Assembly: GCF_900115595.1 (NCBI RefSeq)
Contig: NZ_FOXA01000027.1
Coordinates: 1-37,140, forward strand
DNA length: 37,140 nt
Source of the DNA: Tranquillimonas alkanivorans
Lineage (GTDB): Bacteria; Pseudomonadota; Alphaproteobacteria; Rhodobacterales; Rhodobacteraceae
Direction: 5' to 3'
The notes under the pieces are model-generated. The model saw only the letters and a program-made list of their open reading frames with translations. It did no database searches and was not told the DNA's origin. Made by a program: the position numbers and the translations under genes. How positions within the stretch are numbered: the first letter of the stretch is position 1; every line of letters starts with the position of its first letter. Positions 6,747-28,084 of this stretch are shown in pieces.

Positions 6747-6766
6747 GGATACACAGCGATACAAAT
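6747..6766 (+). promoter_or_regulatory. Tandem half-site (site A) for a proposed OmpR-type regulator
   Basis: GGATACACAGCGATACAAAT contains GATAC at 6748 and again at 6758, exactly 10 bp apart, followed by AAA. The same layout occurs at 28064-28084 and near the response regulator gene. Spacing by one helical turn is what dimers of OmpR/PhoB-family regulators use. It lies 77 bases before the start of the 6843-10543 operon. Confidence 0.5.
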
Positions 6767-6842
6767 CTCGAGGCCTCGTCAGTTGATCACGGGCCGGCGT
6801 TGGGGGACACTACAGCTCAGAACAAGAACGACGAGGCACACG

Positions 6843-7409
6843 ATGAGCAGGTTTCGACCGCCCCGGCTGGGGCGCAGGAATTTTATTCTCGGCGGAGCAG
6901 CCTTGGCCGCAGCCCTTCCGGCGGCTCTCGAAGCGGAACCCGGCGTCGTGCGAAGGAACGTGTCGTCCTTCCGGCTCCATGACTGGCGCGATCACTTCGA
7001 CGCCCTCGGAAAAGGGATCATCATCTCCGACACGCGCACGCGCGTCCTTCAGCACTGGACCTTGGATGGCGAGATGCGGGTCTATCCGACGTCGGTGCCG
7101 CTCAGCGACGAGCTGACCCGCAGGGGATACACCGAGATCGTCTTCAAGGACGAGGCGCCGGACTGGGCGCCGACCCCCTCCATGCTGGAACGCGACCCCT
7201 CCCTGCCCCGCTACGTCGGCCCCGGCCCCCAGAACCCGCTTGGCGTGCGCGCGATGCACCTGACCTGGCAATATTACCGCATCCACGGGACGAACGACAC
7301 GCGCAAAATCGGCCGGCGGTCCAGCAACGGGTGCATCGGCCTTTTCAACGAGCACATCGTGGAGGTGTTCGACCGCACGCCGGTGGGAACGCAGGTGAAG
7401 CTGATCTGA
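6843..7409 (+). CDS. L,D-transpeptidase (YkuD-type) domain protein, Tat-type signal
   Basis: Periplasmic 188-residue protein. The N-terminus LGRRNFILGGAALAAALPAALEA is a twin-arginine-type signal peptide. The catalytic region is HGTNDTRKIGRRSSNGCIGL, matching the YkuD pattern in which His is followed by the S-x-G-C box holding the nucleophilic Cys (about residue 165). Such enzymes make 3-3 crosslinks in peptidoglycan or attach proteins to it; a role here is inferred. Start ATG 6843 follows GACGAGG weakly. First gene of a plus-strand operon running to 10543; the next gene starts 22 bases later. Confidence 0.88.
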   Translation: MSRFRPPRLGRRNFILGGAALAAALPAALEAEPGVVRRNVSSFRLHDWRDHFDALGKGIIISDTRTRVLQHWTLDGEMRVYPTSVPLSDELTRRGYTEIVFKDEAPDWAPTPSMLERDPSLPRYVGPGPQNPLGVRAMHLTWQYYRIHGTNDTRKIGRRSSNGCIGLFNEHIVEVFDRTPVGTQVKLI

Positions 7410-7431
7410 AAAGGCAGCGGGGCCGAGCGGG

Positions 7432-7791
7432 ATGTCGAAAAGCTGGAAAGCGAGCCTGGACGTACTTCGCGCACTGCTCTGCGGGATCGTCGTCCTGATT
7501 GCAGCAGGGCTCGCCACGAACGCAGGCGCGGCTCCGGCAAGCGGTGCGGATTCTGCGCTCCATGATCGGCAAGACGCGCATCCTCCCGCTTCGGACCATT
7601 CTGCGCACGAGGATGACGGGTGCCACGCCGGCCCCGACTGCAACGTCACCGCCGCCTTTCTGCCCACCGCCGCTCGTCCGCTGCCTACCCCGGACGCACC
7701 TGAAGCGTTTCTTCTGACCCATGTGCGACGCACGTCGCTCAGCCCCGAATCCGAACCGCCGCCTCCACGAGCCGGGCCTCTGAAGCAATAG
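7432..7791 (+). CDS. Small secreted His/Cys-rich protein
   Basis: 119 residues. An N-terminal hydrophobic segment (about 12-34, ending AGAAPA) is a signal peptide or anchor. The mature part is His/Asp-rich (LHDRQDAHPPASDHSAHEDD), then has a Cx5C pair (GCHAGPDC), AAFLP, and a proline-rich tail (ESEPPPPRAG). No family is recognised with certainty. Two other small proteins in the window (18210 and 23940) share the same build. His plus Cys clusters suggest periplasmic metal binding, which is inference. Sits between the transpeptidase and cytochrome c' genes in one operon. Confidence 0.7.
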   Translation: MSKSWKASLDVLRALLCGIVVLIAAGLATNAGAAPASGADSALHDRQDAHPPASDHSAHEDDGCHAGPDCNVTAAFLPTAARPLPTPDAPEAFLLTHVRRTSLSPESEPPPPRAGPLKQ

Positions 7792-7826
7792 CCCGAGACG
7801 CGGAATACGGAACAGGATTTGGACAG

Positions 7827-8453
7827 ATGAAAAAGATGATAATGATCGCTGCGCTGGCGACGGCCGCCGGGGCTGCCGTTTGGGCGCATGGCGGTGCGAC
7901 AGGCGTGGTCAAGGAGCGGATGGACGGCATGGCTGCGATGGGCAAGGCCGTGAAGTCGCTCGCTCCCATGATGCGCGGCGAAGAAGAGTACGATGCCCAC
8001 GCGGTCCGCGAGGCGGCGGCGGTGATTTCCCGGCACGCCGGAGAGGCGATCACCTCGCGCTTCCCGGAGGGAACGACCGCCCCGCCGTCGGAGGCCAAGG
8101 ATGCGATTTGGGAGAACTGGGGCGATTTCAGCGCCTTGGCGCAACAACTCGCGGTCGCAGCCGATGGCCTTGAGCTGGCGGCCGCCAACGGCCTCGCGGC
8201 TGCGGGCGGCGGAATGTCCGCAGACAGCATGATGGGCGGGAACTCGATGATGGGCGGGAAGCCGATGATGGGCGGAAGCTCCATGATGGGCGGGTCCGAC
8301 ACGATGATGGGAGGCGGGTCGGCCATGGGAGGCGCTCCTGGTCAAGGCATGACAGCCGAGCAGATCGGCGCGATGCCCGCCTCCGCCGCCTTCGAGATGA
8401 CGAGCCGGGTCTGCTCCACGTGCCACACCCGGTTCCGCGCCGAGGACGACTGA
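7827..8453 (+). CDS. Cytochrome c' with a Met/Gly-rich insert
   Basis: Periplasmic 208-residue protein with signal peptide ending near residue 20 (AAVWA). The four-helix cytochrome c' pattern is present: VKERMDGMAAMGKAVKSL in helix 1 and the C-terminal heme site CSTCHTRFR (Cys196, Cys199, His200). Family members normally have about 150 residues. The extra length is a stretch at about 128-175 with five MMGG units plus an MGG (MMGGNSMMGGKPMMGGSSMM and onward), placed in the loop before the heme helix. Cytochromes c' bind NO or CO at a five-coordinate heme; methionine clusters of this kind bind Cu(I) or Ag(I). The combination suggests a copper-binding cytochrome, which is inference. The next gene begins 3 bases after its stop. 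Confidence 0.87.
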   Translation: MKKMIMIAALATAAGAAVWAHGGATGVVKERMDGMAAMGKAVKSLAPMMRGEEEYDAHAVREAAAVISRHAGEAITSRFPEGTTAPPSEAKDAIWENWGDFSALAQQLAVAADGLELAAANGLAAAGGGMSADSMMGGNSMMGGKPMMGGSSMMGGSDTMMGGGSAMGGAPGQGMTAEQIGAMPASAAFEMTSRVCSTCHTRFRAEDD

Positions 8454-8456
8454 CCC

Positions 8457-9377
8457 ATGAAGCGGATGATCGGAACCGGCGTCGCGGCGGTCGCAGCGGG
8501 TGTCGCGGCACTCGCGGCGGTCGCAGCCTGGCCGATTGGCAAACCTCCGGCAGAAATCATGCCGGAGGGCGATGTTCAGCGCGGGGCGTACCTCGCCCGC
8601 GCGAGCGGATGCATTGCCTGTCACACGAACTTCGAAGCCGGCGGCCCTCCGCTCGCCGGCGGCGCCCCGCTCGAGACCGACTTCGGCGTGTTTCATCCGC
8701 CGAACCTCACAACCGATCCCGATGCCGGCATCGGAAGCTGGAGCATCCGCGATTTCGCCCGGGCAGTGCGCCAAGGCATTTCACCGGACGGCGAGCCGTA
8801 CTACCCGACCTTCACCTACCCGTTCTACGCATCCTTCAGCGACCAGGACATCGCGGACCTCTGGGCCGCCTTCCGAACGGTGGCGCCGGTGGATGAGCCG
8901 ACGCCGGAACACGAGGTGGCTTTCCCCTTCGACCAGCGCTGGGGATTGAAGCTGTGGCGCGCTGCCTACCTGCGCACCCCCGCGACCGCGCCGAAAGAAG
9001 GAAGAAGCGACGCCTGGAACCGCGGCAAGGAACTCGTGCGCGGAGCGGCTCATTGCGGCGCATGCCACACGGACCGCAATTTCGCCGGCGCACGCGTGCT
9101 GGAAGCGGTGCTTTCGGGAAGCGACGATCTCCCGGGAGGAGGCAAGGCTCCGTCGATACGGCCCGACGCGCTGAGGACGGAGGGATGGACGGTTTCGAGC
9201 CTCGCCTACGCGCTTCGGACCGGCATCACGCCTGCAGGCGACGCGTTCGGAGGCAGCATGGGCGAAGTGGTTGCGCAGGGAACCGCGTTCCTGAGCCAGG
9301 CTGACCGGGAGGCGATGGCGATCTACCTCCTGGACAACGACCTGAGCGGCGGTGTGCAGGTTGCGGCGGGCGACTGA
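8457..9377 (+). CDS. Diheme cytochrome c (alcohol/sugar dehydrogenase cytochrome-subunit type)
   Basis: 306 residues with an N-terminal hydrophobic anchor/signal (about 1-26) and two c-type heme motifs, CIACH (52-56) and CGACH (200-204), each in its own cytochrome domain. Blocks such as GGAPLETDFGVFHPPNLTTDPDAGIG and ARAVRQGISPDGEPYYPTFTYP are typical of the cytochrome subunits of membrane dehydrogenases and related soluble diheme cytochromes. No dehydrogenase gene is adjacent, so its electron donor is not known; the following monoheme cytochrome is a likely partner. Start ATG 8457 follows the cytochrome c' stop after three bases, so translation is probably coupled. Confidence 0.88.
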   Translation: MKRMIGTGVAAVAAGVAALAAVAAWPIGKPPAEIMPEGDVQRGAYLARASGCIACHTNFEAGGPPLAGGAPLETDFGVFHPPNLTTDPDAGIGSWSIRDFARAVRQGISPDGEPYYPTFTYPFYASFSDQDIADLWAAFRTVAPVDEPTPEHEVAFPFDQRWGLKLWRAAYLRTPATAPKEGRSDAWNRGKELVRGAAHCGACHTDRNFAGARVLEAVLSGSDDLPGGGKAPSIRPDALRTEGWTVSSLAYALRTGITPAGDAFGGSMGEVVAQGTAFLSQADREAMAIYLLDNDLSGGVQVAAGD

Positions 9378-9446
9378 GAGCGCCTCTTCGCAGGGAAACC
9401 ATGACCAGCTTGCGGGGCCGCGTCGGCCTCGCACCGGAGGACATTC

Positions 9447-9926
9447 ATGCTGCGCTATCTCATCGCCGGAGGAGCGATCGCTGCCGCCGCCGCGGCCGTC
9501 GCCTGGTGGGTCACCGGACAGAAACCCCCTTCGGTGACGTCCTTCCGGCAACCCGCGGCCGTCGACCTCGCCCGTGGAGAGGCCCTCTACGGGGAGTACT
9601 GCTCCTCCTGCCACGGCGCAGACCTCCAGGGGCAACCGGACTGGAGAACGGCCGGCGCCGACGGGCGCCTGCCCGCCCCACCGCACGACGAGACGGGTCA
9701 CACCTGGCATCACCCGGACAGGGTGCTGTTCGACTACACGGCGCTCGGCGGAAAGGAAGCGCTTGCGAAGGACGGGATCGAGTTCGACAGCGGCATGCCC
9801 GGCTTCGGCGAGGCGCTGGACGACCAGGACATCTGGAACATCATCGCCTTCATCAAGTCGACCTGGCCCGAGCGACAACGCAATGTGCAGGCAGAGAGAA
9901 CGGCGGCCGACCTCGCCGGCTCCTGA
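9447..9926 (+). CDS. Monoheme cytochrome c, membrane-anchored or secreted
   Basis: 159 residues. Ala-rich hydrophobic N-terminus (1-22), heme motif CSSCH (52-56), and a probable axial Met in SGMPGFG (Met117). Middle part is HDETGHTWHHPDR, His-rich. This is the class I cytochrome c layout. GGAGG lies 5 bases before the ATG. It follows the diheme cytochrome by 69 bases and precedes the DUF411 gene, so it probably belongs to the same operon. Role as an electron carrier is inferred. Confidence 0.88.
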   Translation: MLRYLIAGGAIAAAAAAVAWWVTGQKPPSVTSFRQPAAVDLARGEALYGEYCSSCHGADLQGQPDWRTAGADGRLPAPPHDETGHTWHHPDRVLFDYTALGGKEALAKDGIEFDSGMPGFGEALDDQDIWNIIAFIKSTWPERQRNVQAERTAADLAGS

Positions 9927-10066: not shown

Positions 10067-10543
10067 ATGAGAAGTTACAGTCTCGCCGCCGCTGCCGTCG
10101 GTGCGCTCGCGACGGCGTTCGCCGCGCTGCCCCACAACGCCCATGCCGAGAGCGTATCTGCCGGGGAGGCCGTGCTCGAGGTGCGGAAGACACCCACCTG
10201 CGGATGCTGCGGGGCATGGGCGGCGCTTGCCTCGGAGCACGGCTACCGTGTCGAGCTTGAAGATGTCGAGGACTACGAGGGGATGAAGGTGGAGGCAGCC
10301 GTGCCGGAAGACCTTTGGGCCTGTCACACTGCCACGATCGCCGGCTACGTCATCGAAGGACATGTGCCGTTCGAGGCGGTGAAGAAGCTCCTCGACGAGC
10401 GCCCGGACATCGACGGCATCGCAGTGCCGGGTATGCCGGCTGGCTCGCCCGGAATGGGCAACGATCTCTCCGCAAGCTTCGAGGTCATCGCCTACGGCGG
10501 GACGGCCGGGGATGGCGTGGTGTTTCACTCGGTCGGCGGCTGA
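10067..10543 (+). CDS. DUF411-family periplasmic metal-binding protein
   Basis: 158 residues with a signal peptide ending AHAES (about 27). The DUF411 signatures are all present: KTPTCGCCGAW (Cys45, 47, 48), CHTA (86-89), GHVP (98-101) and the Met box GMPAGSPGM (122-130). DUF411 proteins are common in copper-resistance clusters and are thought to bind copper. Start ATG 10067 follows CAGGAGA. The 140-bp gap to the preceding gene may hold a promoter, but the orientation and theme match the operon. It is the last gene before a strong two-way terminator. Confidence 0.9.
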   Translation: MRSYSLAAAAVGALATAFAALPHNAHAESVSAGEAVLEVRKTPTCGCCGAWAALASEHGYRVELEDVEDYEGMKVEAAVPEDLWACHTATIAGYVIEGHVPFEAVKKLLDERPDIDGIAVPGMPAGSPGMGNDLSASFEVIAYGGTAGDGVVFHSVGG

Positions 10544-10650: not shown

Positions 10651-11310
10651 TCAGTTTTCCTGCATCTCCATCCCATTGCCCTCCATCATGCCGGAGGCGT
10701 CGTCATCCTGCATCATGCCTTGGGAATTGCCGTTCATCATCCCGGGCTGCCCCGCGGACGCCGCGCTCCCGCCCGGACCGCTCATCATCCGGTTGCGCAT
10801 CTCCTGCATGCGTTCCATTCGATCTGCGGGAGTGGCCATCTCCTCAGGCGTCACTTCGCCGTCGCCGTCGTTGTCGAGGAACTGGAAGCGATCGACGGTG
10901 GCTTCGCGCATCATTGCGCTATGCAGGGTCTCGAACTCGTCCAGCGACAGGGTGCCGTTTCCGTCGGCGTCATACTCCTGAAGCAGGCCCTGCAGCGCCG
11001 TGCGAAGCTCCTCGGGCGTCACCGTGCCGTCCCCGTCCGCGTCGAATCGCTCCATCATCGCCATCATGGACATGCCGCCCATCATCGGCATGCCGCCTGC
11101 ACCCATCATGCCCATTCCCGGCATACCGCCAGAGCCAGCCATGCCGGAATGCATCTTCATCATCTGCATCATGTCGTGGCCGCCGCCCTGGGCGCCGTAC
11201 ATCCCGGACCCGCCGGCACCGCGACGGCCGTGGCCGTCGTCTGCCAAGGCCGCACCGGCCGTTAGAGCGAGCGCCGCCGCGAGCGCTGCCGATCCAAACG
11301 TTTTCATCAT
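10651..11310 (-). CDS. Met-rich EF-hand protein, secreted
   Basis: 219 residues from the ATG at 11310, chosen because GGAGAGGAG lies just before it. Signal peptide to about residue 24 (AGAALADD). Residues 36-86 are Met/Gly-rich (MYGAQGGGHDMMQMMKMHSG, later GMMGAGGMPMMGGMSMM), then three EF-hand loops: DADGDGTVTPEE (90-101), DADGNGTLSLDE (114-125) and DNDGDGEVTPEE (146-157), and a second Met-rich tail (GMMQDDDASGMMEGNGMEM). EF-hands bind calcium; the methionine runs resemble periplasmic Cu(I)/Ag(I) binders. It is transcribed divergently from the response regulator gene across a region with paired inverted repeats, so control by that regulator is likely (inference). Confidence 0.8.
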   Translation of the reverse strand: MMKTFGSAALAAALALTAGAALADDGHGRRGAGGSGMYGAQGGGHDMMQMMKMHSGMAGSGGMPGMGMMGAGGMPMMGGMSMMAMMERFDADGDGTVTPEELRTALQGLLQEYDADGNGTLSLDEFETLHSAMMREATVDRFQFLDNDGDGEVTPEEMATPADRMERMQEMRNRMMSGPGGSAASAGQPGMMNGNSQGMMQDDDASGMMEGNGMEMQEN

Positions 11311-11387: not shown

Positions 11388-11438
11388 TTTGTATCGATGT
11401 GTCGCAGAGACCGAAGCTGATACAAACCGTGACAAAAC
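11388..11438. promoter_or_regulatory. Paired tandem half-sites (sites C and D) in front of the two-component operon
   Basis: TTTGTATC (11388-11395) and GATACAAA (11419-11426) are perfect 8-bp inverted repeats. Each arm continues as a degenerate 10-bp tandem: on the minus strand GCGACACATCGATACAAAAG, on the plus strand GATACAAACCGTGACAAAAC. The half-site matches sites A and B elsewhere. The two sites face each other across about three helical turns between the EF-hand gene and the response regulator, as expected for autoregulation. Confidence 0.5.
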
Positions 11439-11480: not shown

Positions 11481-12203
11481 ATGAACGGGTCTCCGCATAT
11501 TCTCGTCGTCGACGATCATCGCCAGATCCGCGAGTCCGTCACGCGCTTTCTCGAAAAGAACGGGATGCGCGCGACAGCGGCGGGAGATGCGAAGGAAATG
11601 GACGCGAAACTTTCCTCCGGCCATTTCGATCTTCTGGTGCTCGACGTCATGATGCCGGGGGAATCCGGCCTCTCGGTCTGTCAGCGTCTTTCCGCCGAGA
11701 GACGCTTGCCCATCATAATGCTCACGGCCCTGGGACAGGAAATGGATCGGATTGCCGGACTTGAGATCGGTGCCGACGACTATCTTCCCAAGCCGTTCAA
11801 CCCGCGCGAACTCCTCGCCCGGATCAAGGCGGTGCTGCGACGGGCCGAGCCGGGCGAAGCTCATGCGGGCCAGTTCGCAGGAAAGAACGTCCGTTTCGCC
11901 GACCTTACGCTGGTGTCGGACCGGCGGGTTCTGCAAACCGACGCGGGTAAAATCATCCCGCTCACGACGGCGGACTTCCGGCTTCTCACAGTCCTGCTGG
12001 AACGTCCGCGCATGGTGCTGAGCCGCGAGCAACTTCTGGACCTGACGTCCGGGCGCGCTGCCGGGCCGATGGACCGCATCATAGACAACCAGATCAGCCG
12101 TCTGCGGCGGAAGATCGAGCCCGATCCGCTTCGGCCCAGCGTCATCACCACCGTCCGGAACGGCGGCTATTGCCTGGCGACGGAGGTGGAGGTTCTCGAG
12201 TGA
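11481..12203 (+). CDS. OmpR-family response regulator
   Basis: Cytoplasmic DNA-binding regulator of 240 residues. Receiver domain about 6-118 with the acidic pair DD (11-12), phospho-acceptor Asp55 in LVLDVMMPG, Thr82 and Lys104 in LPKPF. C-terminal winged-helix domain about 135-235, with LTTADFRLL and RIIDNQISRLRRKIE, and the usual TVRNGGYCLA end. The stop overlaps the GTG start of the sensor kinase. The genes controlled are not shown by sequence, but its own promoter region carries a repeated motif found at two other operons. Metal sensing is suggested by the surrounding copper genes only. Confidence 0.93.
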   Translation: MNGSPHILVVDDHRQIRESVTRFLEKNGMRATAAGDAKEMDAKLSSGHFDLLVLDVMMPGESGLSVCQRLSAERRLPIIMLTALGQEMDRIAGLEIGADDYLPKPFNPRELLARIKAVLRRAEPGEAHAGQFAGKNVRFADLTLVSDRRVLQTDAGKIIPLTTADFRLLTVLLERPRMVLSREQLLDLTSGRAAGPMDRIIDNQISRLRRKIEPDPLRPSVITTVRNGGYCLATEVEVLE

Positions 12204-13681
12204 CCGTTCCTCCGTTTCGCGGCCTGCGGGCGCAACTCATCCTTCTTATCGTCGCGGCGCTCGCGGCGGCGCAGGCGATCAGCCTCTGGCTCTTCGTGGA
12301 CGAGCGCAGCCTTGCCGTCCGAGCCGCCCTCGGTTTCGAGGCGGCGGGACGGGCGGCCAACGTGGCCCGACTCCTCGAAGAGGCGCCGCCCGAGCTTCAA
12401 CCCTCGATCCTGCGCGCCGCGAATTCCCCGCTCGTGCGCTTCGACTTGTCGAGCGCGCCCGAGGTGAGCCACCAGGAGCACGCCGACGGCGGCCGGATCG
12501 AGCGTCACGTCCGCACGCTGCTCGGCGACAGCTACACACGCGAGATCCGCGTCGAGCTTCACAGGATCGAGGGACAGATCCTGCCCCTCCCACATCTTTC
12601 GCCCGAAATGGCGGAACTGCACCGCGCCATGATGCGCGGTGAACTCTCTGCAGTGGAGATGAACCTGTCGATCGCCCTCGCCGGCGGTGACTGGCTGAAC
12701 GTCGGGACCCGCTTCGAACGCCCGCCTCTGCAATGGCCGATGGTCTCGATCTTCTCTTTCGCTGTCACGGCCGGCCTTATCCTCGTCACCGCCTTCTGGT
12801 TCCTCGTGTCGCGGCTCACCCGACCACTGCGCGGACTGGCGCGGGCGGCGGATAGACTCGGCCGGGGCGAAGAGGTCGATCCTCTTCCTGCCGTGGGACC
12901 CGCCGAGGTGCAGGACCTGACGCAGGCGTTCAACCGGATGCAGGATCGCCTGACGCGCTTCGTCGCGGACCGGACGCGCCTTCTCGCCGCGGTCGGCCAT
13001 GATCTGCGTTCGCCGCTGACCGCCCTGCGGGTCCGCGCCGAGATGGTCGATGACGCTGAAACGCGGGAAAGCCTGATCGAGTCCGTCGAGGAGATGCAGC
13101 GGATGGCAGAAGCGACGCTGACCTTCGCGCGCGGACTGACCGGGGCGGAGGAGCCCGAGACAGTGGAGATCGCGGGATTCCTCGACGCCTTGGCGCGCGA
13201 CATGGTCGAGGAGGTGGAAATCGGCGCGGGTCCTGTCGTCAAGGCCCGCGTGCGACCCACTGCCTTCCGACGCGCCGTGCGCAACGTCCTCGAGAACGCC
13301 AGCCGCTATGGCGGCAGCGCCCGGATCGACTGGCACACGTCGGACGGCGACCTCGTCATAGAGGTCACCGACGACGGCCCGGGCATTCCGGCCGACCAGA
13401 TCGAACAGGTGTTCGACCCGTTCTACCGGCTCGAAGCCTCGCGATCACTGGAAACCGGTGGCCACGGCCTCGGCCTCTCGATCGCCCGTTCGATCGTCCG
13501 GGCGCACGGCGGCGATGTCAGGCTTTCGAACCGCCCCGAAGGCGGCCTCAGGGCCTCGATCATCGTCCCGCTCGGCGGCGACGCGCCGATGCATCGCTCC
13601 GACACGGTCGAGCGGCAGACCGCCGTGTCCATCGGGCCCCTGCGGTCCGACCCGGGCAGCAGAACGGAGGAAAGCCGATGA
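12200..13681 (+). CDS. Sensor histidine kinase, partner of the preceding regulator
   Basis: 493 residues from GTG 12200, which overlaps the regulator's TGA (GTGA). Two membrane helices (about 11-33 and 182-205) enclose a periplasmic sensor region of about 150 residues containing several His (SHQEHADGGRIERH). Then a HAMP domain (about 206-255), the H-box AVGHDLRSPLTALRVRAEM with His267, N-box NVLENASRYG (Asn366), G1 DDGPGIP and G2 GGHGLGLSIAR. All catalytic boxes look intact. The stop overlaps the ATG of ccmF, so kinase and heme-lyase genes are on one message. The signal sensed is not known; His in the loop would suit a metal, which is inference. Confidence 0.92.
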   Translation: MTVPPFRGLRAQLILLIVAALAAAQAISLWLFVDERSLAVRAALGFEAAGRAANVARLLEEAPPELQPSILRAANSPLVRFDLSSAPEVSHQEHADGGRIERHVRTLLGDSYTREIRVELHRIEGQILPLPHLSPEMAELHRAMMRGELSAVEMNLSIALAGGDWLNVGTRFERPPLQWPMVSIFSFAVTAGLILVTAFWFLVSRLTRPLRGLARAADRLGRGEEVDPLPAVGPAEVQDLTQAFNRMQDRLTRFVADRTRLLAAVGHDLRSPLTALRVRAEMVDDAETRESLIESVEEMQRMAEATLTFARGLTGAEEPETVEIAGFLDALARDMVEEVEIGAGPVVKARVRPTAFRRAVRNVLENASRYGGSARIDWHTSDGDLVIEVTDDGPGIPADQIEQVFDPFYRLEASRSLETGGHGLGLSIARSIVRAHGGDVRLSNRPEGGLRASIIVPLGGDAPMHRSDTVERQTAVSIGPLRSDPGSRTEESR

Positions 13682-15678
13682 TACCTGAACTGGGCCACTT
13701 CGCCCTCGCTCTCGCACTGGGGCTCGCCCTGGTCCAAAGCGTTCTTCCGCTGGCAGGCGCCTCCCGGGGGAACCTTCTCTGGATGCGCTCCGCACGCGCC
13801 TCCTCCCTCGGGCAGCTTCTGTTCGTCGCGGTCGCGTTCGCCGCGCTCATGCGGTCCTTCGTCGTCAGCGACTTCACCGTGCGCAACGTCGTCGAGAATT
13901 CGCACTCCCTCAAGCCGATGCTCTTCAAGATCGCCGGCACCTGGGGAAGCCACGAAGGCTCGCTCGTGCTCTGGGTCCTGATCCTCGTCGCCTTCGGTGC
14001 GGCCGTCTCTCTCTTCGGGGCCAACATTCCCGAACGACTGAAGGCGCGCACGCTGGCCGTGCAGGCCTGGATTTCGACCGGCTTCCTGTCGTTCCTCCTG
14101 CTGACGTCCAACCCGTTCGAGCGGGTCTTTCCTCCGCCGCCCGACGGCAACGACCTGAACCCGCTCCTGCAGGATGTCGGGCTCGCGATGCATCCGCCAC
14201 TTCTCTACGTCGGATACGTCGGGTTCTCGATCGTCTTCTCCTTCGCCGTCGCGGCGCTCCTCGAGGGTCGGGTGGACGCGGCCTGGGCGCGCTGGGTGCG
14301 GCCGTGGACCCTGGCCGCCTGGATGAGCCTCACCGCCGGCATCGCGCTCGGGTCGTGGTGGGCCTATTACGAGCTCGGCTGGGGCGGCTGGTGGTTCTGG
14401 GACCCGGTGGAGAACGTGAGCTTCATGCCGTGGCTGCTGGGCACCGCGCTGCTGCACTCGGCCATCGTGACGGAGAAACGGGACGCCTTCAAAAGCTGGA
14501 CGATCCTGCTGGCGATCCTGACCTTCTCGCTGTCGCTCCTGGGCACCTTCATCGTCCGCTCCGGCATGCTGACCTCGGTGCACGCCTTCGCGGTCGATCC
14601 CGAGCGCGGACTTTACATCCTGATGCTGCTCGCGCTGTCCATCGGCGGCTCGCTCGCGCTCTACGCCTGGCGGGCGCCGATGATGGAGGCTGGCGGCCTC
14701 TTCCGGCCGATCAGCCGGGAAAGCGGGCTTCTCGTCAACAACCTGATCCTCGCCGCCGCCACCGGCACGGTGCTGTTCGGCACGCTCTACCCGCTCTTCT
14801 ACGAAGCGCTGACCGGCGGCGACAAGCTGTCGGTGGGCCCGCCCTTCTTCAACTCGTCCTTCGTGCCGATGATGCTCCCGCTGGTCTTCGTCATGGGGCT
14901 CGGTCCGTTCCTGTCGTGGAAGCGGGCGGACCTCGGCGGCGTTCTCCAGCGCCTGCGCTTCGTGGCGGCGCTGTCGGGGCTGGCCGCCCTCGCCGTCTGG
15001 TATGTCGCGGAGCGCGGCCCGGTACTGGCGTATCTCGCGATCTTCCTGGCGGTCTGGCTGCTTCTGGCCACGCTGCGTGAGTGGGGCCTGCGCATCAGGC
15101 TCGCCGAGGTGCCTCTCGGCGAGTCCCTTCGCAGAGCGCGGAAGCTTCCACGAGCGGCGCACGGCATGACGCTCGCCCACGCGGGCCTCGCGGTCGCCAT
15201 CTTCGGGTTCGCCGGGTCCAGCGCCTGGAAGTCTGAGGAAATCGTCTTCGTCACCCCGGGTTCCGACGTCTCGATTGCCGGCTTCGACGTCACGTTCGAG
15301 GGCGCCAAGCGTCTGAACGGGCCGAACTACATCGCCGACCGCGGCACGCTCACGGTGCGCCGGGACGGAGCCTTTGTGAAGACCCTCTATCCGGAGCGGC
15401 GCAGCTATCCGGTGGCACAGAGCACGACGACGGAGAGCGCCATCCGCTCGACGCTCGCGGGCGACCTCTATGCCTCCCTCGCGGAACCCGCCTCCGACGA
15501 GGCCAGCGCATCGGGTGCCTGGACACTGCGCATCCTCTACGAGCCGCTGGTCAACTTCATCTGGCTCGGCGCCGTGATGCTCTTCGCGGGCGGAGGGCTA
15601 TCGCTTTCGGACCGCCGGCTGCGCGTCGGGGCGCCGAAGCGTCCTTCCGCGACGCCAGCGGCCGTGGCGGCGGAGTGA
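13678..15678 (+). CDS. ccmF: Cytochrome c maturation heme lyase subunit CcmF
   Basis: Inner-membrane protein of 666 residues that with CcmH joins heme to apocytochrome c in the periplasm (system I). About 14-15 membrane helices. The tryptophan-rich WWD domain ELGWGGWWFWDPVENVSFMP is at about 233-252; conserved histidines include His172 in AMHPPLLY and His260. TWGSHEGSLVLWVL near 88 is also family-typical. ATG 13678 overlaps the kinase stop (ATGA). It heads ccmF-G-H-I; ccmA, B, C, D and E are not in the window, so heme delivery must come from elsewhere in the genome. Confidence 0.95.
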   Translation: MIPELGHFALALALGLALVQSVLPLAGASRGNLLWMRSARASSLGQLLFVAVAFAALMRSFVVSDFTVRNVVENSHSLKPMLFKIAGTWGSHEGSLVLWVLILVAFGAAVSLFGANIPERLKARTLAVQAWISTGFLSFLLLTSNPFERVFPPPPDGNDLNPLLQDVGLAMHPPLLYVGYVGFSIVFSFAVAALLEGRVDAAWARWVRPWTLAAWMSLTAGIALGSWWAYYELGWGGWWFWDPVENVSFMPWLLGTALLHSAIVTEKRDAFKSWTILLAILTFSLSLLGTFIVRSGMLTSVHAFAVDPERGLYILMLLALSIGGSLALYAWRAPMMEAGGLFRPISRESGLLVNNLILAAATGTVLFGTLYPLFYEALTGGDKLSVGPPFFNSSFVPMMLPLVFVMGLGPFLSWKRADLGGVLQRLRFVAALSGLAALAVWYVAERGPVLAYLAIFLAVWLLLATLREWGLRIRLAEVPLGESLRRARKLPRAAHGMTLAHAGLAVAIFGFAGSSAWKSEEIVFVTPGSDVSIAGFDVTFEGAKRLNGPNYIADRGTLTVRRDGAFVKTLYPERRSYPVAQSTTTESAIRSTLAGDLYASLAEPASDEASASGAWTLRILYEPLVNFIWLGAVMLFAGGGLSLSDRRLRVGAPKRPSATPAAVAAE

Positions 15679-15682
15679 CACG

Positions 15683-16252
15683 ATGGTCAGGCTGCTCGCG
15701 CTCATTCCCCTGCTCATCGCGATCGTCTTCGGGGCGTTCTTCCTCTGGGGACTGAACCCGGATCGCGATCCGAGTGAACTTCCCTCGGTTTTGATCTCCC
15801 AGCCCGCCCCCGCCTTCGACCTGCCCCCCGTCCCAGGCGCCGGCGTGCCCGGCCTCGCGCAGGAAGATCTCGCGGACAACGACGGCGCCGTGGTCGTCAA
15901 CGTCTTCGCCTCCTGGTGCGTGCCATGCCGGGCGGAGCATGCCGTCCTCACCCGCTTCGTCGACGAGGAAGGCGTGCGGCTCTTCGGCATCAACTACAAG
16001 GACCAGCCCGAGGATGCCGTCGCCTGGCTCGAAAACCTCGGCAACCCGTACGAGCGGATCGGCTCCGATCTCGATGGCCGCGCCGGGATCGAATGGGGCA
16101 TCTCCGGCGTGCCGGAAACCTTCATCGTCGGCTCCGACGGCACGGTCCTCTTTCGCTACGTGGGCCCCGTCGTCGGAGACGAGGCGGTGGAAGAATTCGG
16201 TATCGCCCTCGCGCAGGCTCGCGCGGTCCCTCTGCAAGGAGAAGGCTCATGA
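15683..16252 (+). CDS. ccmG: Thiol:disulfide interchange protein CcmG/DsbE
   Basis: Membrane-anchored periplasmic thioredoxin-like reductant for apocytochrome/CcmH cysteines. 189 residues: anchor helix 4-24, then a thioredoxin fold with active site WCVPC (Cys79, Cys82) and the cis-Pro region SGVPETF near 150, as in this family. It starts 4 bases after the ccmF stop and its TGA overlaps the ATG of ccmH. A DsbD/ScsB-type protein encoded at 25260-27413 is a candidate electron donor (inference). Confidence 0.94.
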   Translation: MVRLLALIPLLIAIVFGAFFLWGLNPDRDPSELPSVLISQPAPAFDLPPVPGAGVPGLAQEDLADNDGAVVVNVFASWCVPCRAEHAVLTRFVDEEGVRLFGINYKDQPEDAVAWLENLGNPYERIGSDLDGRAGIEWGISGVPETFIVGSDGTVLFRYVGPVVGDEAVEEFGIALAQARAVPLQGEGS

Positions 16253-18590: not shown

Positions 18591-18676
18591 CCCCGCCTCG
18601 CCCGGCGCTCCCGCCGGGACGGGCGACTGGCACGCATCCGCGTGTGCCACAGGCTCACCTTGGACAGGACAAATCT

Positions 18677-18898
18677 ATGACCATTCGATATGCGGCCCTT
18701 GCGCCGCTGGCTTTGGCCGGCTGTGCGGCCGCCGCGCCCTTGCCACCGGCCGCCCCTCTGGCGCCAGCGGCCAGCGTCGCGCCTCTCGTCACGGCGCCGA
18801 CGGTGCCCGCCTTGCGCGACACGCCCGCCGACCTCACCCAGCCGGGCGACTGGCGCGGCCTCAACGACCGTCAGTCACCCGCGGGAGCGAACCGATGA
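18677..18898 (+). CDS. Small lipoprotein
   Basis: 73 residues. Lipobox LALAGCAA near residue 15-16 marks it as an outer-membrane or periplasmic lipoprotein; the rest is Ala/Pro-rich, ending DLTQPGDWRGLNDRQSPAGANR. Its stop overlaps the ATG of the TolC-like gene (ATGA), so the two are surely co-expressed. Family not recognised. It could be an accessory of the TolC-like channel. Confidence 0.6.
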   Translation: MTIRYAALAPLALAGCAAAAPLPPAAPLAPAASVAPLVTAPTVPALRDTPADLTQPGDWRGLNDRQSPAGANR

Positions 18899-20361: not shown

Positions 20362-20366
20362 GGAAC

Positions 20367-21719
20367 ATGGAGATGATGCACAAGTTCAGCCGCCGGAATT
20401 TTCTCGCCGCCGGTGCCACCCTGGTCGCCGCCGAGGCGGTGGCCCAAACCTCGCAGGGCGCGGTTCCCGAAGCGCCTGCCACCGGTGCGGCCGTTCCGCC
20501 GCCCCCCTCGCAGGGTCGGCCTTACAATCCGGTCGTCACGCTGAACGGCTGGTCTCTGCCGTTCCGCATGAAGGACGGCGTCAAGGAATTCCACCTCGTC
20601 GCCGAACCCGTCGAGCGCGAGATGGCCGACGGCATGGCTGCGCGTCTGTGGGGCTACAACGGCACGTCCACCGGACCGACCATCGAGGCGGTGGAAGGCG
20701 ACCGGGTACGCATCTTCGTCACCAACCGCCTGCCCGAGCACACATCCGTGCACTGGCACGGCCTGATCCTGCCCTCGGGCATGGACGGGGTGGGCGGCCT
20801 CAGCCACAAGGGCATTCCTTCGGGCAAGACCTTTGCCTACGAGTTCGACCTCGTGAAATCTGGCACCTTCATGTACCACCCACACGCCGACGAGATGGTG
20901 CAGATGGCGATGGGCATGATGGGCCTGTTCATCGTGCATCCCCGGGATCCGGCCTTCATGCCAGTGGACCGCGACTTCGCATTCCTGCTGGCCGCCTACG
21001 ACATCGACCCCGGCAGCCACGTTCCCCGCGTCATGGAAATGACGGACTTCAACCTCTGGACGTGGAACAGCCGGATTTTTCCTGACATCGACCCGCTCGT
21101 CGTGGCGAAAGGCGACCGCGTACGGGTGCGGGTCGGCAACCTGACGATGACCAACCACCCGATCCACATGCACGGCTACGACTTCAAGGTGACCTGCACC
21201 GACGGCGGCTGGGTGCCGCCCGAAGCCGCTTGGCCCGAAGTGTCCATCGACATTCCCGTGGGCGCGATGCGCGCCTACGAGTTCGACGCCGTGCACGAGG
21301 GCGACTGGGCGATCCACTGCCACAAGTCGCACCATACCATGAATGCGATGGGCCACGACATTCCCACGTTCATTGGTGCCAGCAAGGACCGGCTGTCGCA
21401 GATGATCCGCCGCCAGCAGCCCGAATACATGCCCATGGGCACCGCAGGCATGGCCGACATGGGTGAGATGAGCATGGAGTTGCCCTCCAATACCGTGCCG
21501 ATGATGGCCGGATGGGGGCCGCACGGCCCGCTGGAGATGGGCGGCATGTTCTCCGTGGTGAAGGTGCGCGAGGGAATTGCGCCCGACGACTACGCCGACC
21601 CCGGATGGTACGAGAATCCGCCGGGAACCGAGGCCCTGGAATGGACGGGCGACCTGCCCGACCCGGTCCGGCAGATCAGCGCCCGGACCGTTCTGACGCC
21701 ACGCCCGCAAGGGTCGTGA
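20367..21719 (+). CDS. Multicopper oxidase, Tat-exported (CopA/CueO-like)
   Basis: 450 residues; probably oxidises Cu(I) to the less harmful Cu(II) in the periplasm. Tat signal SRRNFLAAG at 8-16. All four copper boxes are present: HWHG (129-132), HPH (171-173), HPIHMHG (264-270) and HCHKSHHTMNAM (317-328) with the type 1 Cys318 and Met328. It is shorter than CopA and lacks a long Met-rich domain, though the C-terminal part has MPMGTAGMADMGEMSMEL. Start taken as ATG 20367 after GAGG; ATG 20373 or 20376 are possible. Follows the TolC-like gene by 5 bases. Confidence 0.92.
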   Translation: MEMMHKFSRRNFLAAGATLVAAEAVAQTSQGAVPEAPATGAAVPPPPSQGRPYNPVVTLNGWSLPFRMKDGVKEFHLVAEPVEREMADGMAARLWGYNGTSTGPTIEAVEGDRVRIFVTNRLPEHTSVHWHGLILPSGMDGVGGLSHKGIPSGKTFAYEFDLVKSGTFMYHPHADEMVQMAMGMMGLFIVHPRDPAFMPVDRDFAFLLAAYDIDPGSHVPRVMEMTDFNLWTWNSRIFPDIDPLVVAKGDRVRVRVGNLTMTNHPIHMHGYDFKVTCTDGGWVPPEAAWPEVSIDIPVGAMRAYEFDAVHEGDWAIHCHKSHHTMNAMGHDIPTFIGASKDRLSQMIRRQQPEYMPMGTAGMADMGEMSMELPSNTVPMMAGWGPHGPLEMGGMFSVVKVREGIAPDDYADPGWYENPPGTEALEWTGDLPDPVRQISARTVLTPRPQGS

Positions 21720-21747
21720 GGCGTGAACCAAAATAGGAAACAGCAAA

Positions 21748-22224
21748 ATGAGCAGGAAACTGATCGGCGCCGCGGCGCTGAGCCTTATAACGGGGGCCGC
21801 GGTGGCCAGCGGCACCCACACGGCCCCCCATCACGAAGAGATGGCCGCCGGCCGTCCCGGCGAAGCTGCGGAAGCGACGCGGGTGGTTGAGATGACCATG
21901 CGCGAGCTCGACAACGGCGAGATGGTATTCGAGCCGAGCGAGCTGTTTTTCGCGGAAGGCGAGACGGTACGCTTCGTCGTCAGCAATGAGGGGCTGGCCG
22001 AGCACGAATTCGTGCTGGATAGCCACGCGAAGAACGGAGAGCACATGGAGCTAATGGCGCGCTTCCCCGAGATGGAGCACGACGACCCGAACTCCGTGCG
22101 CCTGGAGCCGGGCGAGACCGGCGAGATCATCTGGACTTTCTCGAAGGCTGGCGGCTTCGAGTTCGCCTGCCTGCTGCCCGGCCATTACGAGTCCGGCATG
22201 CAAGGCCCCATTCTCGTCAACTGA
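21748..22224 (+). CDS. Cupredoxin (blue copper protein, CopI-like)
   Basis: 158 residues with signal peptide to about 21. Type 1 copper ligands are clear: His86 (AEHEF), Cys141, His146 and Met151 in CLLPGHYESGM. The N-terminal mature part has extra His (THTAPHHEE). The protein resembles the CopI-type copper-resistance cupredoxins of photosynthetic bacteria more than azurin. AGGAA before the ATG. It lies between the multicopper oxidase and a CusF-like gene, and may accept or deliver copper or electrons for the oxidase. Confidence 0.9.
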   Translation: MSRKLIGAAALSLITGAAVASGTHTAPHHEEMAAGRPGEAAEATRVVEMTMRELDNGEMVFEPSELFFAEGETVRFVVSNEGLAEHEFVLDSHAKNGEHMELMARFPEMEHDDPNSVRLEPGETGEIIWTFSKAGGFEFACLLPGHYESGMQGPILVN

Positions 22225-22240
22225 ACTCTCGGAGAAACTC

Positions 22241-22519
22241 ATGAAACGACTGATCCCTCTCTTTGCCGCGCTCAGCCTCTCGGTCGCGCCCGCCTTCGCC
22301 GACGCGCATTTTGTAAAAGGCAAGGTGAAGAAGCTCGATGCGGAGGGCGGCAAAGTCACGCTGATCCACGAGGAGCTTACGAGCCTCGACATGCCGGCGA
22401 TGACCATGGTCTTCGTGTTGGCCGATCCGGCCATGGCCGGAATGCTGTCCGAGGGCGCCGAGCTCGAGTTCGCCGCCGATCGCGTGAACGGAAAGCTCAC
22501 GGTCACCGAGCTACGCTGA
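22241..22519 (+). CDS. CusF-like periplasmic copper-binding protein
   Basis: 92 residues, signal peptide ending AFADA (20-22), then a small OB-fold-like domain. The metal site of E. coli CusF (His36, Trp44, Met47, Met49) aligns with His43, Met51, Met54 and Met56 (DMPAMTM) with the same spacing, so the capping Trp is replaced by Met. It probably binds Cu(I) or Ag(I). In CusCFBA it hands copper to an RND pump, which is absent here. GGAG precedes the ATG. Last gene of the cassette. Confidence 0.88.
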   Translation: MKRLIPLFAALSLSVAPAFADAHFVKGKVKKLDAEGGKVTLIHEELTSLDMPAMTMVFVLADPAMAGMLSEGAELEFAADRVNGKLTVTELR

Positions 22520-25259: not shown

Positions 25260-27413
25260 CTAACTGCCTTTGCCCACCCGCCCCGCACCACCTGCCTGAT
25301 CGAGCGCCGTCATCACCGCTTCCAACGACAGCAGTTCCGGAAGGACGACGCCGCCGGGCGCTTGGGGGCCATACACGGCATTGAACGGGATGCCGAAGCG
25401 GTCGAAGCTCTCAAGATAGCGCGAGATCGCCTCGTCGGGTTGGGTCCAGTCCGCCTGCATCGCCGTGACGCCCTCCCCGGCGAGCGCAGGCGCCACCGGC
25501 TCCCGCTCGAGCACCAGCGCCTTGTTGGCCTTGCAGGTCAGGCACCAGTCCGCCGTCACGTCGACGAAGACGATTTCCCCCCGCGAGACCCGCTGTGCAA
25601 TCCCGGCCCGGTCGAACGCGATCCATGGTATCCCGTCGGTCGCTGCACTGTCTCGAGCGCCCCCTGCGCCGCCGTCTGCGAAGGCGCCGGCCAGCACCAG
25701 CGGCAGCACCGCGAGAGCAGAGGCAAGGCCGAGTCGGGCCGGGCGCGGCAGCCGAGGCAGCCCCAGCGTCAGGATCAGAGCCACGCTCGCGCCGGTGACG
25801 AGGCGTGCGCTCGTCGCGCCCGCGACGCCGGACAACACCCAAACCAGCCACGCGGCGGTCGCCGCCAGCAAAAGCGCCAGCAGCCCCTTGACCACGAGCA
25901 TCCAGCGTCCCGGTCGCGGCATGTGACGCACCAGGCCCGGGGCGGCGGCGATCAGCAGGTACGGGGCCGCGAGGCCGAAACCGAGAAAGGTAAACACGAT
26001 AACGATGTCGAGGCCGCGCCCGGCGAGGGCGAAGGCAATGGCGGTGCCCAAGAACGGCGCAGAACAGGGCGTCGCGAGCACGGCTCCGAAGGCTCCGGTC
26101 AGGAAGTCGCCCGCATGGCCGCCGGACGCGCCGGCTTGCGCCAGCCGGGTCTGCAGCCCGCTGGGCAACCGGATCTCGAACAGCCCGGCGAGGTTGGCGG
26201 CGAAGATCGCCAGGAGCACGATCATGAGCGCAAGGAAAACCGGGTTCTGGAACTGCACCCCCCACCCCACGGTGACGCCCAGCCGCTGCAATGCGTAGAG
26301 GACCGCCGCGAGCCCCCACATGAAGGCCATGACACCTGCGGCCGAAGCCAGGAACCCACGCCGGACCTTCGCCCTCGCGGTGCCTTCGAGCTTGAGGGCC
26401 GCGCTCAGCTTGATTGACAGCACCGGCAGGACGCACGGCATGACGTTGAGGATCAGTCCCCCGAGGAGCGCCGTCATCGCAATCCAGAAGAGGTCGGCCG
26501 CGTCGGGCGCGGCCGACGACGTCGCGAACGGCGCAGGAGGCGCCGCCATGGCTCGGTCCGGTGACAAGGTCACCGCCCGTGCGCCTTCATCGGTGACTGT
26601 GACCGACATCTCCGACAGAGGCCCTGCCGGCGCCGCAAGTATAGGGACCCGGGCCCAGAGAAGGCGTCCGCCCTCGCCCATCCGGATGTCCGGAGCCCCC
26701 AGTGACACCCCTGCCCCGAGTTCCGGGAAGACGTCCGGCCGGTCGAACGGGACATTGCTGCGAACGGAGACGACCAGTTCCGTCGTCTTCCCGTCGATAT
26801 ACGCCTCCGCCTCCGTGACCGCCGAGGCAGACTGTATCACCGGAACGCGCTTCGCGAACTCCGCAATACGCGCAGCACTTCGCGCGTCGAGGCCTGTGCC
26901 GACGGGTACTTCCAAGGCAAGGTCGAACTCCTGCGGCACGCAGATGTCCGAGCACGTGAGAAGCCTGACGTGCGCTTCCAGCCGCGCCGGCTGCCCAGGC
27001 TCCTCGAGCGCGATGCGCAGCGGGAAAACGACTTCGCCGTGATAGCCGAAGTTCTCGATGCCGAAGGCGGTGAACCTTTCGGGCGCTGGCCATTGAAATT
27101 CGACGTCTTCGACGTTCGACGACTCGGACCAGTCTACCTCGGGCGGAAATCCGACGTCGCCGGGCGTCCGCCAGTAGGTTTTCCACCCCTCTTCGAGCTG
27201 AAGCTCCAGCCCCGCGGAGAGGCTCTGCGCCCCCGGCACCACCCCTTCTTCCGCAACGATGAGCTTGGCAGTCACCGCCGCCGTGGAGGCGGTATCGGAG
27301 ACAGCGGCAGAGGCAGGGTGTGAGCCAGCGATCGGGAACGCCAGCAGGACCGCGAGCGTGGCCCGGGCCGGCCAAAGGGATTTCCGAAGTCCCCCGAGAA
27401 CGACCTGTTTCAT
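25260..27413 (-). CDS. ScsB/DsbD-like thiol:disulfide interchange protein
   Basis: 717-residue inner-membrane protein that moves reducing power from cytoplasmic thioredoxin to periplasmic partners. Signal peptide to about 36; N-terminal domain with the Cys pair LLTCSDICVP (Cys154, Cys158); membrane core of about eight helices with the paired cysteines NVMPCVLP (Cys327) and ATPCSAPF (Cys450); C-terminal thioredoxin-like domain with DWCLTCK (Cys624, Cys627). This is the ScsB layout and not that of short CcdA. Start at ATG 27413 follows GGAGGG; the frame is open upstream but without a ribosome site. It follows the small lipoprotein by 34 bases. Likely clients are CcmG and the DsbA-like protein encoded nearby (inference). 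Confidence 0.92.
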   Translation of the reverse strand: MKQVVLGGLRKSLWPARATLAVLLAFPIAGSHPASAAVSDTASTAAVTAKLIVAEEGVVPGAQSLSAGLELQLEEGWKTYWRTPGDVGFPPEVDWSESSNVEDVEFQWPAPERFTAFGIENFGYHGEVVFPLRIALEEPGQPARLEAHVRLLTCSDICVPQEFDLALEVPVGTGLDARSAARIAEFAKRVPVIQSASAVTEAEAYIDGKTTELVVSVRSNVPFDRPDVFPELGAGVSLGAPDIRMGEGGRLLWARVPILAAPAGPLSEMSVTVTDEGARAVTLSPDRAMAAPPAPFATSSAAPDAADLFWIAMTALLGGLILNVMPCVLPVLSIKLSAALKLEGTARAKVRRGFLASAAGVMAFMWGLAAVLYALQRLGVTVGWGVQFQNPVFLALMIVLLAIFAANLAGLFEIRLPSGLQTRLAQAGASGGHAGDFLTGAFGAVLATPCSAPFLGTAIAFALAGRGLDIVIVFTFLGFGLAAPYLLIAAAPGLVRHMPRPGRWMLVVKGLLALLLAATAAWLVWVLSGVAGATSARLVTGASVALILTLGLPRLPRPARLGLASALAVLPLVLAGAFADGGAGGARDSAATDGIPWIAFDRAGIAQRVSRGEIVFVDVTADWCLTCKANKALVLEREPVAPALAGEGVTAMQADWTQPDEAISRYLESFDRFGIPFNAVYGPQAPGGVVLPELLSLEAVMTALDQAGGAGRVGKGS

Positions 27414-27447
27414 CTGTTCCCTCCGGCATGTGCGCATGGCGGCGTCC

Positions 27448-27708
27448 TCACGGGTAGGCAGCTCGGGAAGACGAATTGAGGGCGAATCCAATCCGGCCGC
27501 CCGAGCACGAGAGCCGCGCCACACCCTCGTCCTGGTCCACCACGACACACTCCGCGGGAAGGTTCGTCGCAGTCGGTGCCTCCGGTGGCCGCTCGGCGTC
27601 CGGCTGAAGCGAGCACTGCTTGGCACCGCCCGTCGAACAGCCGGCGAGAACTGCCGGCCCGAGGACCATAAGCATGCGAAGCCGGTCTGCCGTGCCGCGT
27701 GCGGTCAC
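27448..27708 (-). CDS. Small lipoprotein
   Basis: 86 residues from GTG 27708, which overlaps the stop of the upstream gene (GTGA). Lipobox VLAGCS; mature part contains further Cys (KQCSLQPD, PAECVVVDQ, RLSCSGGRIGF). Two or more conserved-looking cysteines and a position before the DsbD-like gene suggest an envelope protein whose thiols are handled by that system, but no family is recognised. Confidence 0.6.
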   Translation of the reverse strand: MTARGTADRLRMLMVLGPAVLAGCSTGGAKQCSLQPDAERPPEAPTATNLPAECVVVDQDEGVARLSCSGGRIGFALNSSSRAAYP

Positions 27709-28001
27709 CGTGGCGCAGGCTTGGCGGCCTCGACCGGCACCGGGATGGGGGCTGTTTCCGCTCCGTCGGCTTCCTCGCTTTCCTGCTTTCCGTGACAGCT
27801 CCGCCCCATCATCCTGTGCATGACCAGATGCATCCCGAGGCACAGAACAAGCGGTGCAAACACGGCTGCGTTCGACCACAAGCCCGCCAGCGTGCCGCCG
27901 GATGCGAAGAAGCCGGCGACAGGCAGGAGCATGATGGCGCAGCACGCCATCATGCCCAGCTTCATGACCTTCGTAGATCCGATCCCTGATTTCTGTTTCA
28001 T
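27705..28001 (-). CDS. DUF2933-like small membrane protein
   Basis: 98 residues from ATG 28001 (ATG 28007 and 28016 are alternatives). Two membrane helices: GMMACCAIMLLPVAGFF with a CC pair, and AAVFAPLVLCLGMHLVMHRM, ending MHRMMGRSCHGK. The Met/His/Cys end of helix 2 is typical of the small DUF2933-type proteins of copper-resistance loci. Tail is Glu/Pro/Ala-rich. First gene of the minus-strand unit with the lipoprotein and the DsbD-like protein. Confidence 0.65.
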   Translation of the reverse strand: MKQKSGIGSTKVMKLGMMACCAIMLLPVAGFFASGGTLAGLWSNAAVFAPLVLCLGMHLVMHRMMGRSCHGKQESEEADGAETAPIPVPVEAAKPAPR

Positions 28002-28063
28002 TTGCATTCCGCACATCCACCAATTCACGATCCTTATCACCGCCACCCGCGCGGGAAGGTCAA

Positions 28064-28084
28064 GGATACATTCCGATACAAAAA
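28064..28084 (+). promoter_or_regulatory. Tandem half-site (site B)
   Basis: GGATACATTCCGATACAAAA: GATAC at 28065 and 28075, 10 bp apart, followed by A-rich bases, as in site A. It lies between the divergent DUF2933-like gene (64 bases) and cytochrome c gene (160 bases) and could serve both. Confidence 0.5.

Follow-up and report, generated by a model that had tools for sequence, protein, structure and literature searches.

The question raised by this locus is whether a short tandem repeat, found in the gaps between cytochrome, cytochrome c maturation (Ccm) and thiol-relay genes, marks these genes as one regulon, and if so which regulator and which signal it serves. The locus lies on contig NZ_FOXA01000027.1 of Tranquillimonas alkanivorans (GCF_900115595.1; Rhodobacteraceae), of which positions 1 to 37,140, the whole stretch analysed, are called the window here. 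We propose from sequence comparison, with a probability of roughly 0.8, that four sites in the window are operators of a single regulon bound by the OmpR-type response regulator (RR) encoded at 11481-12203 (+), and that the signal is most likely Cu(I)/Ag(I). The proposed regulon is supported by the small number of matches in the genome, the conserved pair of sites at the RR promoter, the recovery of the window sites by a matrix from which the window was held out, and the co-occurrence of site and RR.

The motif follows the pattern GATACA-N4-GATACAAA. It is present without mismatch on the forward strand at 6748-6765 (as GATACACAGCGATACAAA, 77 bp before the start codon of an L,D-transpeptidase gene) and at 28065-28082 (as GATACATTCCGATACAAA, between the DUF2933/DsbD and the cytochrome/DsbA genes), and with two mismatches at 11388-11405 (-) and 11419-11436 (+), a pair offset by 31 bp whose left member reads toward a Met-rich EF-hand gene and whose right member starts 62 bp before the RR start codon. 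A fifth match, at 11409, has three mismatches, and its second half is the first half of the 11419 site. At up to three mismatches the window holds five matches against 0.30 expected, a number reached in 0 of 100 shuffles. The genome scanned comprised 4,543,020 bases on 92 contigs, the window contig among them; at up to two mismatches it gave four matches, all in the window, and none for a reversed-pattern control. At up to three mismatches it gave 31 matches against 19 for the control, which indicates that the looser search is mostly noise and that only the tight form is informative; extending the regulon by such a scan was therefore dropped. By a hand-made gene list, in which non-coding DNA makes up 16% of the window, all four sites are intergenic. 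The first-pass annotation had reported a tandem GATAC motif at these three intergenic places, and both points were borne out; as to whether the motif is equally common elsewhere, no other place in the genome matches at two mismatches or fewer. It had described the copies at 11388-11438 as facing, which we correct: they are on opposite strands and each reads outward. Its statement that the sites border the interdependent units holds, with the qualification that ccmFGHI has no site of its own but follows the RR and kinase genes in the same direction.

The arrangement recurs at the RR promoters of relatives. We took the best 80 of 488 RR relatives with flanks from the species genome collection, which gave 66 distinct 110-bp regions upstream of the RR. 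At up to four mismatches both sites were found in 57 of the 66, one in nine and neither in none, with an offset of 31 bp in 47 regions and 32 bp in 10; since a single four-mismatch site could arise by chance, the fixed offset is the stronger evidence. The half-sites are kept across the 66 regions and the spacer positions vary more. A 22-position matrix, built from the relatives' RR promoters only and leaving out the window, picks exactly the four window sites, with scores of 25.4 (6748), 28.0 (11388), 32.5 (11419) and 20.1 (28065); the next best place scores 8.6, and the highest score in 200 dinucleotide shuffles of the window was 16.0. Over 87 loci (1.66 Mb) the same matrix found 222 sites at a score of at least 12, against 1 to 9 for six column-permuted matrices, 165 of them before an RR (many being the training sites) and 57 elsewhere. 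Among 29 RR loci of family genomes, which probably overlap in species with the 80 loci, both sites reach this score in 27 and the right site only in two. A site is present in 32 of 36 divergent regions (23 of 27 distinct ones) that separate a DsbD, DUF2933 or DsbA2 gene from a gene for a cytochrome, cupredoxin or L,D-transpeptidase, a set that includes the 28065 region of the window; its orientation is the same in all 32. Of the remaining 100-900 bp gaps between labelled genes, which may contain unlabelled genes, 16 of 343 have one. We take the repeat to be an activator site: it reads toward the cytochrome side in 32/32 of these divergent regions, and in 56 of the 62 rows compared the beginning of the right-hand site is 59-64 bp away from the start codon of the RR downstream. 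The 77 bp between the 6748 site and the L,D-transpeptidase equal the distance in Dinoroseobacter shibae, and the 64 bp between the 28065 site and DUF2933 resemble the 60-69 bp of many relatives; these shared distances suggest that one ancestral DUF2933<>L,D-transpeptidase promoter has become two in the window, each of which would have kept the operator.

The site also tracks the regulator. Among 295 family genomes, RR orthologues were found at E<=1e-90 in 47 (RR+), the 248 others being RR-. The exact outward-pair pattern is present in 21 of 47 RR+ and 0 of 248 RR- genomes (Fisher 2e-19; reversed control 0), and its 22 matches sit just upstream of the RR match, as judged by comparing coordinates by eye; a single site at up to one mismatch is present in 36/47 and 63/248, respectively (Fisher 4e-11). 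Seven other RR loci of the T. alkanivorans genome, out of 32 other matches, had no site at a score of at least 8, and a Jannaschia plasmid carrying DUF2933 and cytochrome genes, in whose record the RR is absent, had no site in the fetched stretch. Distant RR relatives (54-59% identity) on plasmids of Rhizobium, Sinorhizobium and Pannonibacter have site-like repeats before the RR in 3 of 3 cases (scores of 29.4 for a single repeat, 18.0 and 16.4 for two repeats, and 9.7 and 12.4 for a 31-bp pair). The Pannonibacter relative adjoins xanthine dehydrogenase genes, a non-copper context, and no genes are annotated in the stretches around the other two. It thus seems that the site goes with the RR and not with the copper genes. 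RR relatives at E<=1e-70 were found on 105 plasmid records, 79 at 60-80% identity and 57 typed as conjugative, which suggests that the system is likely mobile. An origin of the motif in chance or base composition is ruled out by the mismatch scans, the shuffles, the held-out matrix and the pair-pattern counts. The shared regulon suggested by the first-pass annotation thus gains support, as the sites recur at the same promoters in relatives and accompany an adjacent OmpR-type RR across genomes.

The regulator was correctly placed in the OmpR family, as it consists of a receiver domain (PF00072, 105 bits) and a Trans_reg_C winged helix (PF00486, 72 bits), both above cut-offs. Residues D11, D12, D55, T82 and K104, which we take to be the phosphoacceptor pocket, are invariant in six aligned orthologues. 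OmpR/EnvZ of enterobacteria is the nearest protein family: the domain order of RR and kinase is alike, OmpR is the best-aligning named protein in the PDB for the DNA-binding domain, and the recognition-helix stretch is nearly identical (IDNQISRLRR in the window RR, IDVQISRLRR in OmpR). In contrast to that system, the RR scores 246.4 bits against the OmpR equivalog NF007005, below the cut-off of 331, and the kinase 199 bits against the EnvZ model (cut-off 415); the proposed targets are cytochrome and thiol genes in copper clusters rather than porins; and the consensus is sharp, whereas OmpR itself is described as showing little DNA specificity (PMC3945435). Membership of the heavy-metal subfamilies was rejected both for the RR (CusR/CopR/SilR, TIGR01387; 131.4 bits, cut-off 279.2) and for the kinase (CusS/CopS/SilS, TIGR01386; 133.8 bits, cut-off 292.55).

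We propose a mechanism in which two RR subunits, arranged head to tail, would occupy each tandem repeat, one on each 10-bp half; such 10-bp direct repeats are conserved at the RR promoter in relatives. The 11388/11419 pair would provide autoregulation of the RR-kinase-ccmFGHI operon and drive the divergent Met-rich EF-hand gene (10651-11310), which, judged by position only, probably belongs to the regulon. The 6748 site would drive the L,D-transpeptidase/cytochrome operon, the L,D-transpeptidase heading this operon at 6843 being a further member of the proposed regulon, and the 28065 site would drive the cytochrome-DsbA genes and, probably, DUF2933-DsbD as well. Cu(I)/Ag(I) in the periplasm is the most likely signal for the kinase, which would perceive it via conserved Met/His residues, and the regulon products may re-supply heme- and thiol-dependent periplasmic steps that are poisoned by copper.

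That copper or silver is the signal is suggested by gene content, by the CueR-like boxes of relatives and by residues of the kinase. Copper-handling genes (labelled as CopA, multicopper oxidase, CopZ, CueR, CusF, cupredoxin, CopB or DUF411) lie within the fetched flank, in many cases incomplete, in 59 of the 80 RR loci, thiol or Ccm genes in 55 and an EF-hand match in 59; in the 50 full-length loci the first two are present in 41 and 39. Three relatives (L023, L024, L025) combine RR-kinase-ccmFGHI, DsbD and DUF2933 divergent from L,D-transpeptidase, cytochromes, multicopper oxidase, cytochrome and DsbA, with CopZ beyond the cassette and, in some, CopA and CueR too. Against the consensus of the CueR box, which is palindromic, boxes of the N6 form number 58 in the 87 loci, several from near-identical plasmids, versus 5 for a reversed control, and 23 of the 58 have a tandem site no more than 120 bp away, the usual distances being 24, 39 or 48-49 bp. 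The form ACCTTCC-N7-GGAAGGT was discarded (25 versus 5 in the control, one near a tandem site), as the N6 form fits better. In the T. alkanivorans genome the N6 pattern at two mismatches is no commoner than the control (25 versus 27), and the boxes consequently support copper for the family and not for the window itself, whose weak boxes at 4987 and 28041 are not used as evidence alone; the 28065 promoter retains just a degenerate box (28041, four mismatches).

Of 81 loci, 78 yielded a kinase reading frame, and 69 of these frames are distinct. Among the 69, H151 and M154 are invariant, M147 and H104 are kept in 97%, M150 in 94% and M155 in 93%, and the strict motif MxxM/LHxxM(M/L) is found in 62. 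Met and His are common ligands for periplasmic Cu(I), and the conserved residues suggest Cu(I)/Ag(I) sensing by the periplasmic domain. The motif was not seen by eye in the kinases of the three distant RR relatives (L191-L193), which are perhaps related systems with another signal. The periplasmic domain of CopS/CusS is reported to have two dimer-interface His (PMC7763554); for the sensor domain here the comparison covers the presence of conserved His and Met.

Several points weigh against a copper-responsive regulon bound by this RR. What the sequences show are the motif, its position and conservation, its co-occurrence with the RR and the conserved kinase residues; RR binding, activation rather than repression, the copper signal and the physiological purpose are inferred. 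The exact pair pattern is missing from 26 of the 47 RR+ genomes, 11 of the 47 have no site at one mismatch or fewer, and the 63 RR- genomes counted above do have such a site somewhere. The 80 RR loci are related to one another, many being near-identical plasmids; the 6748 and 28065 sites score below the RR-promoter pair; and four of the 36 divergent regions have no site, L021 in a record without the RR and L022, L048 and L081 in records with it. The TolC/multicopper oxidase/cupredoxin/CusF operon of the window (18135-22519) has no tandem operator by the matrix, though it stands between operator-bearing units. Seven of the 69 kinases do not have the strict motif, and the window kinase has Leu at position 150, where 94% have Met. 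Foldseek found no PDB match at E<=0.001 for the AlphaFold model of the sensor domain (mean predicted local distance difference test score 78, predicted template modelling score 0.52, low in the Met/His stretch), and nothing is therefore claimed from its fold. D. shibae with a sixth, metal-gene-rich plasmid is reported to have unchanged copper, cobalt and zinc resistance and slightly higher silver resistance (PMC9426580); whether or not that plasmid holds the cassette, two others of the species already carry it, pDSHI01 and the 126-kb sister plasmid NC_009957 of strain DFL 12.

The sites might instead be bound by a different regulator, for instance a chromosomal OmpR- or PetR-like protein, with the local RR merely a fellow target. 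Members of the OmpR family bind repeats in tandem at a spacing of about one turn, and further RRs of this family are encoded in the genome, with up to 44% identity; yet the restriction of the exact pair to 21 RR+ genomes, with none in 248 RR- genomes, and the absence of a site both from the seven other RR loci examined and from the record lacking the RR make this very improbable. We give still less credence to the repeats being leftovers of a duplicated promoter without regulatory role, the 6748 and 28065 sites being alike through descent from one ancestral divergent promoter. This would explain why the sequence downstream of these two sites looks similar and why several relatives have one DUF2933<>L,D-transpeptidase region in place of two, but it fits poorly with half-sites kept in 66 distinct upstream regions around a more variable spacer, with the same motif in the different arrangement of the RR promoter, and with a site before dsbB in D. 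shibae.

The alternative that carries most weight, though we consider it unlikely, keeps the RR-bound regulon and changes its signal to periplasmic thiol or heme stress, or to another oxidant such as tellurite, the copper genes being co-selected neighbours on resistance plasmids. The site-linked targets are indeed thiol and heme genes, the multicopper oxidase/TolC operon is without a site, the related Pannonibacter RR lies in a non-copper context, and tellurite is reported to affect cytochrome c assembly (PMC6247083). Such a signal would, however, leave unexplained the Met/His residues of kinases in copper clusters, which inspection by eye did not reveal in the kinases of the three distant relatives, the recurring distances between CueR-like boxes and tandem sites in relatives, and the copper-labelled genes in 59 of 80 loci. 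We therefore favour an RR-bound regulon responding to Cu(I)/Ag(I).

What such a regulon might be for is more tentative. A reading to which we give slightly less than even odds is that of a mobile OmpR/EnvZ-type system which, on sensing Cu(I) in the periplasm, switches on a second set, for copper stress, of the enzymes that copper poisons. The set of spare parts, held with the same reserve, might comprise CcmF with its thiol partners CcmG/CcmH, their reductant DsbD, DsbA (and DsbB in relatives), the L,D-transpeptidase with its active-site cysteine, and c-type cytochromes. Ccm is reported to be a major target of excess periplasmic copper (PMC8456105), which hits cytochrome c maturation (PMC6247083, citing Durand 2015), and L,D-transpeptidases are reported to be inhibited by copper (PMC8263019). 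The other genome copy of CcmF is 56% identical to that of the window, and the sole other DsbD match is weak and partial (31% over residues 55-307); the spare-copy argument is therefore shown for CcmF only. If true, this reading would mean that, in addition to efflux, the replacement of damaged assembly lines in the periplasm contributes to copper tolerance.

Compared with known copper systems, the proposal shares with CusRS/CopRS/PcoRS the sensing of periplasmic Cu(I)/Ag(I), as proposed here, and the link to copper genes. It differs in that the RR and kinase fall far below the heavy-metal subfamily cut-offs, in its direct-repeat operators, whereas the CusR box is a palindrome, and in its site-linked targets, which are c-type cytochrome maturation and the thiol relay. 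A likeness to the CueR regulon is that, in relatives, several promoters with a tandem site also have a CueR-like box nearby; CueR differs in being a one-component cytoplasmic sensor with a palindromic box. The nearest precedent is DsbRS of Pseudomonas aeruginosa, a copper-responsive two-component system that induces thiol/disulfide genes and controls dsbDEG, the DsbRS mutant being copper-sensitive and rescued by dsbDEG (PMC10141476). Compared by description, it is unlike the proposed regulon in that the accessible text of that source does not name ccmFGHI, cytochromes or an L,D-transpeptidase for DsbRS. No description of this regulon, nor of a regulated re-supply of heme lyase by a copper-type sensor, was found in searches of open-access literature; the accessible text of a Martelella plasmid paper mentions copper-export operons and contains none of the terms cytochrome, two-component and CcmF (PMC5613091). 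As cytochrome c assembly is already known as a periplasmic copper target, what would be new is its regulated re-supply. If confirmed, the regulon would offer a precise operator for finding members genome by genome and an OmpR-type regulator with a sharp consensus in a copper response, and would make the rescue of copper-poisoned cytochrome assembly by a second Ccm system testable.

The genes of the window were assigned by Pfam scans, with several start codons inferred. On the forward strand, the L,D-transpeptidase (YkuD; 6843-7409, PF03734) is the first gene of the cytochrome operon and is followed by three cytochrome c genes, namely cytochrome c', a longer and a small cytochrome c (7827-9926; PF01322, PF00034), and in the same direction by a DUF411 protein (10067-10543, PF04214; start inferred by eye). 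The Met-rich EF-hand protein (10651-11310, PF13202; start inferred) lies on the reverse strand, divergent from the RR. Downstream of the RR on the forward strand are the EnvZ-like sensor kinase (12170-13681; PF00672, PF00512, PF02518; TTG start as listed), the CcmF heme lyase (13678-15678, PF16327), the CcmG/DsbE thioredoxin (15683-16252; TIGR00385, above cut-off), CcmH (16249-16725, PF03918) and CcmI (16722-17888, PF23914), the last two with inferred starts. The DsbD-like membrane thiol reductase (25260-27437; PF11412, PF02683) and the DUF2933 protein (27705-28001, PF11666) are on the reverse strand, both with inferred starts, and opposite them on the forward strand are a cytochrome c (28245-28703, PF00034) and a DsbA-like protein with a ScsC-type N-terminal segment (28700-29461; PF01323, PF18312).

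Further observations concern the promoters and the spread of the cassette. On D. shibae pDSHI01 a tandem site stands before dsbB and a second L,D-transpeptidase (L147, 3005-3022), and several family genomes have the same pair of sites, about 22.4 kb apart. Many but not all relatives show by eye, downstream of the right operator, a CTGACC-17 bp arrangement, a hint only, which as a -35/-10 promoter would put the transcription start near the RR ATG. In the window, a CueR-like box with two mismatches to the consensus (TTGACCTTCC-N6-GGAGGCT, 4987-5006) lies just upstream of lgt and an accessory Rieske gene (5016), which are also labelled in 16 and 8, respectively, of the 80 RR loci. The kinds of genes in the cassette are also found on plasmids of Roseobacteraceae and Martelella. 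A metagenome-assembled genome labelled Porticoccus (L091), which we take to be a gammaproteobacterial name, carries this otherwise alphaproteobacterial cassette, through transfer or a binning error. One 166,348-bp plasmid with the same match is listed for both Martelella lutilitoris and 'Dysgonomonadaceae bacterium zrk40', possibly reflecting a mixed culture or a mislabelled record. Adjoining the copper cluster, the window carries an apparent MacAB-like exporter (30831-35500), with an HlyD-type adaptor from the Pfam scan and, judged by eye, a long frame for an FtsX-like permease (32036-34399) and one for an ABC ATPase.

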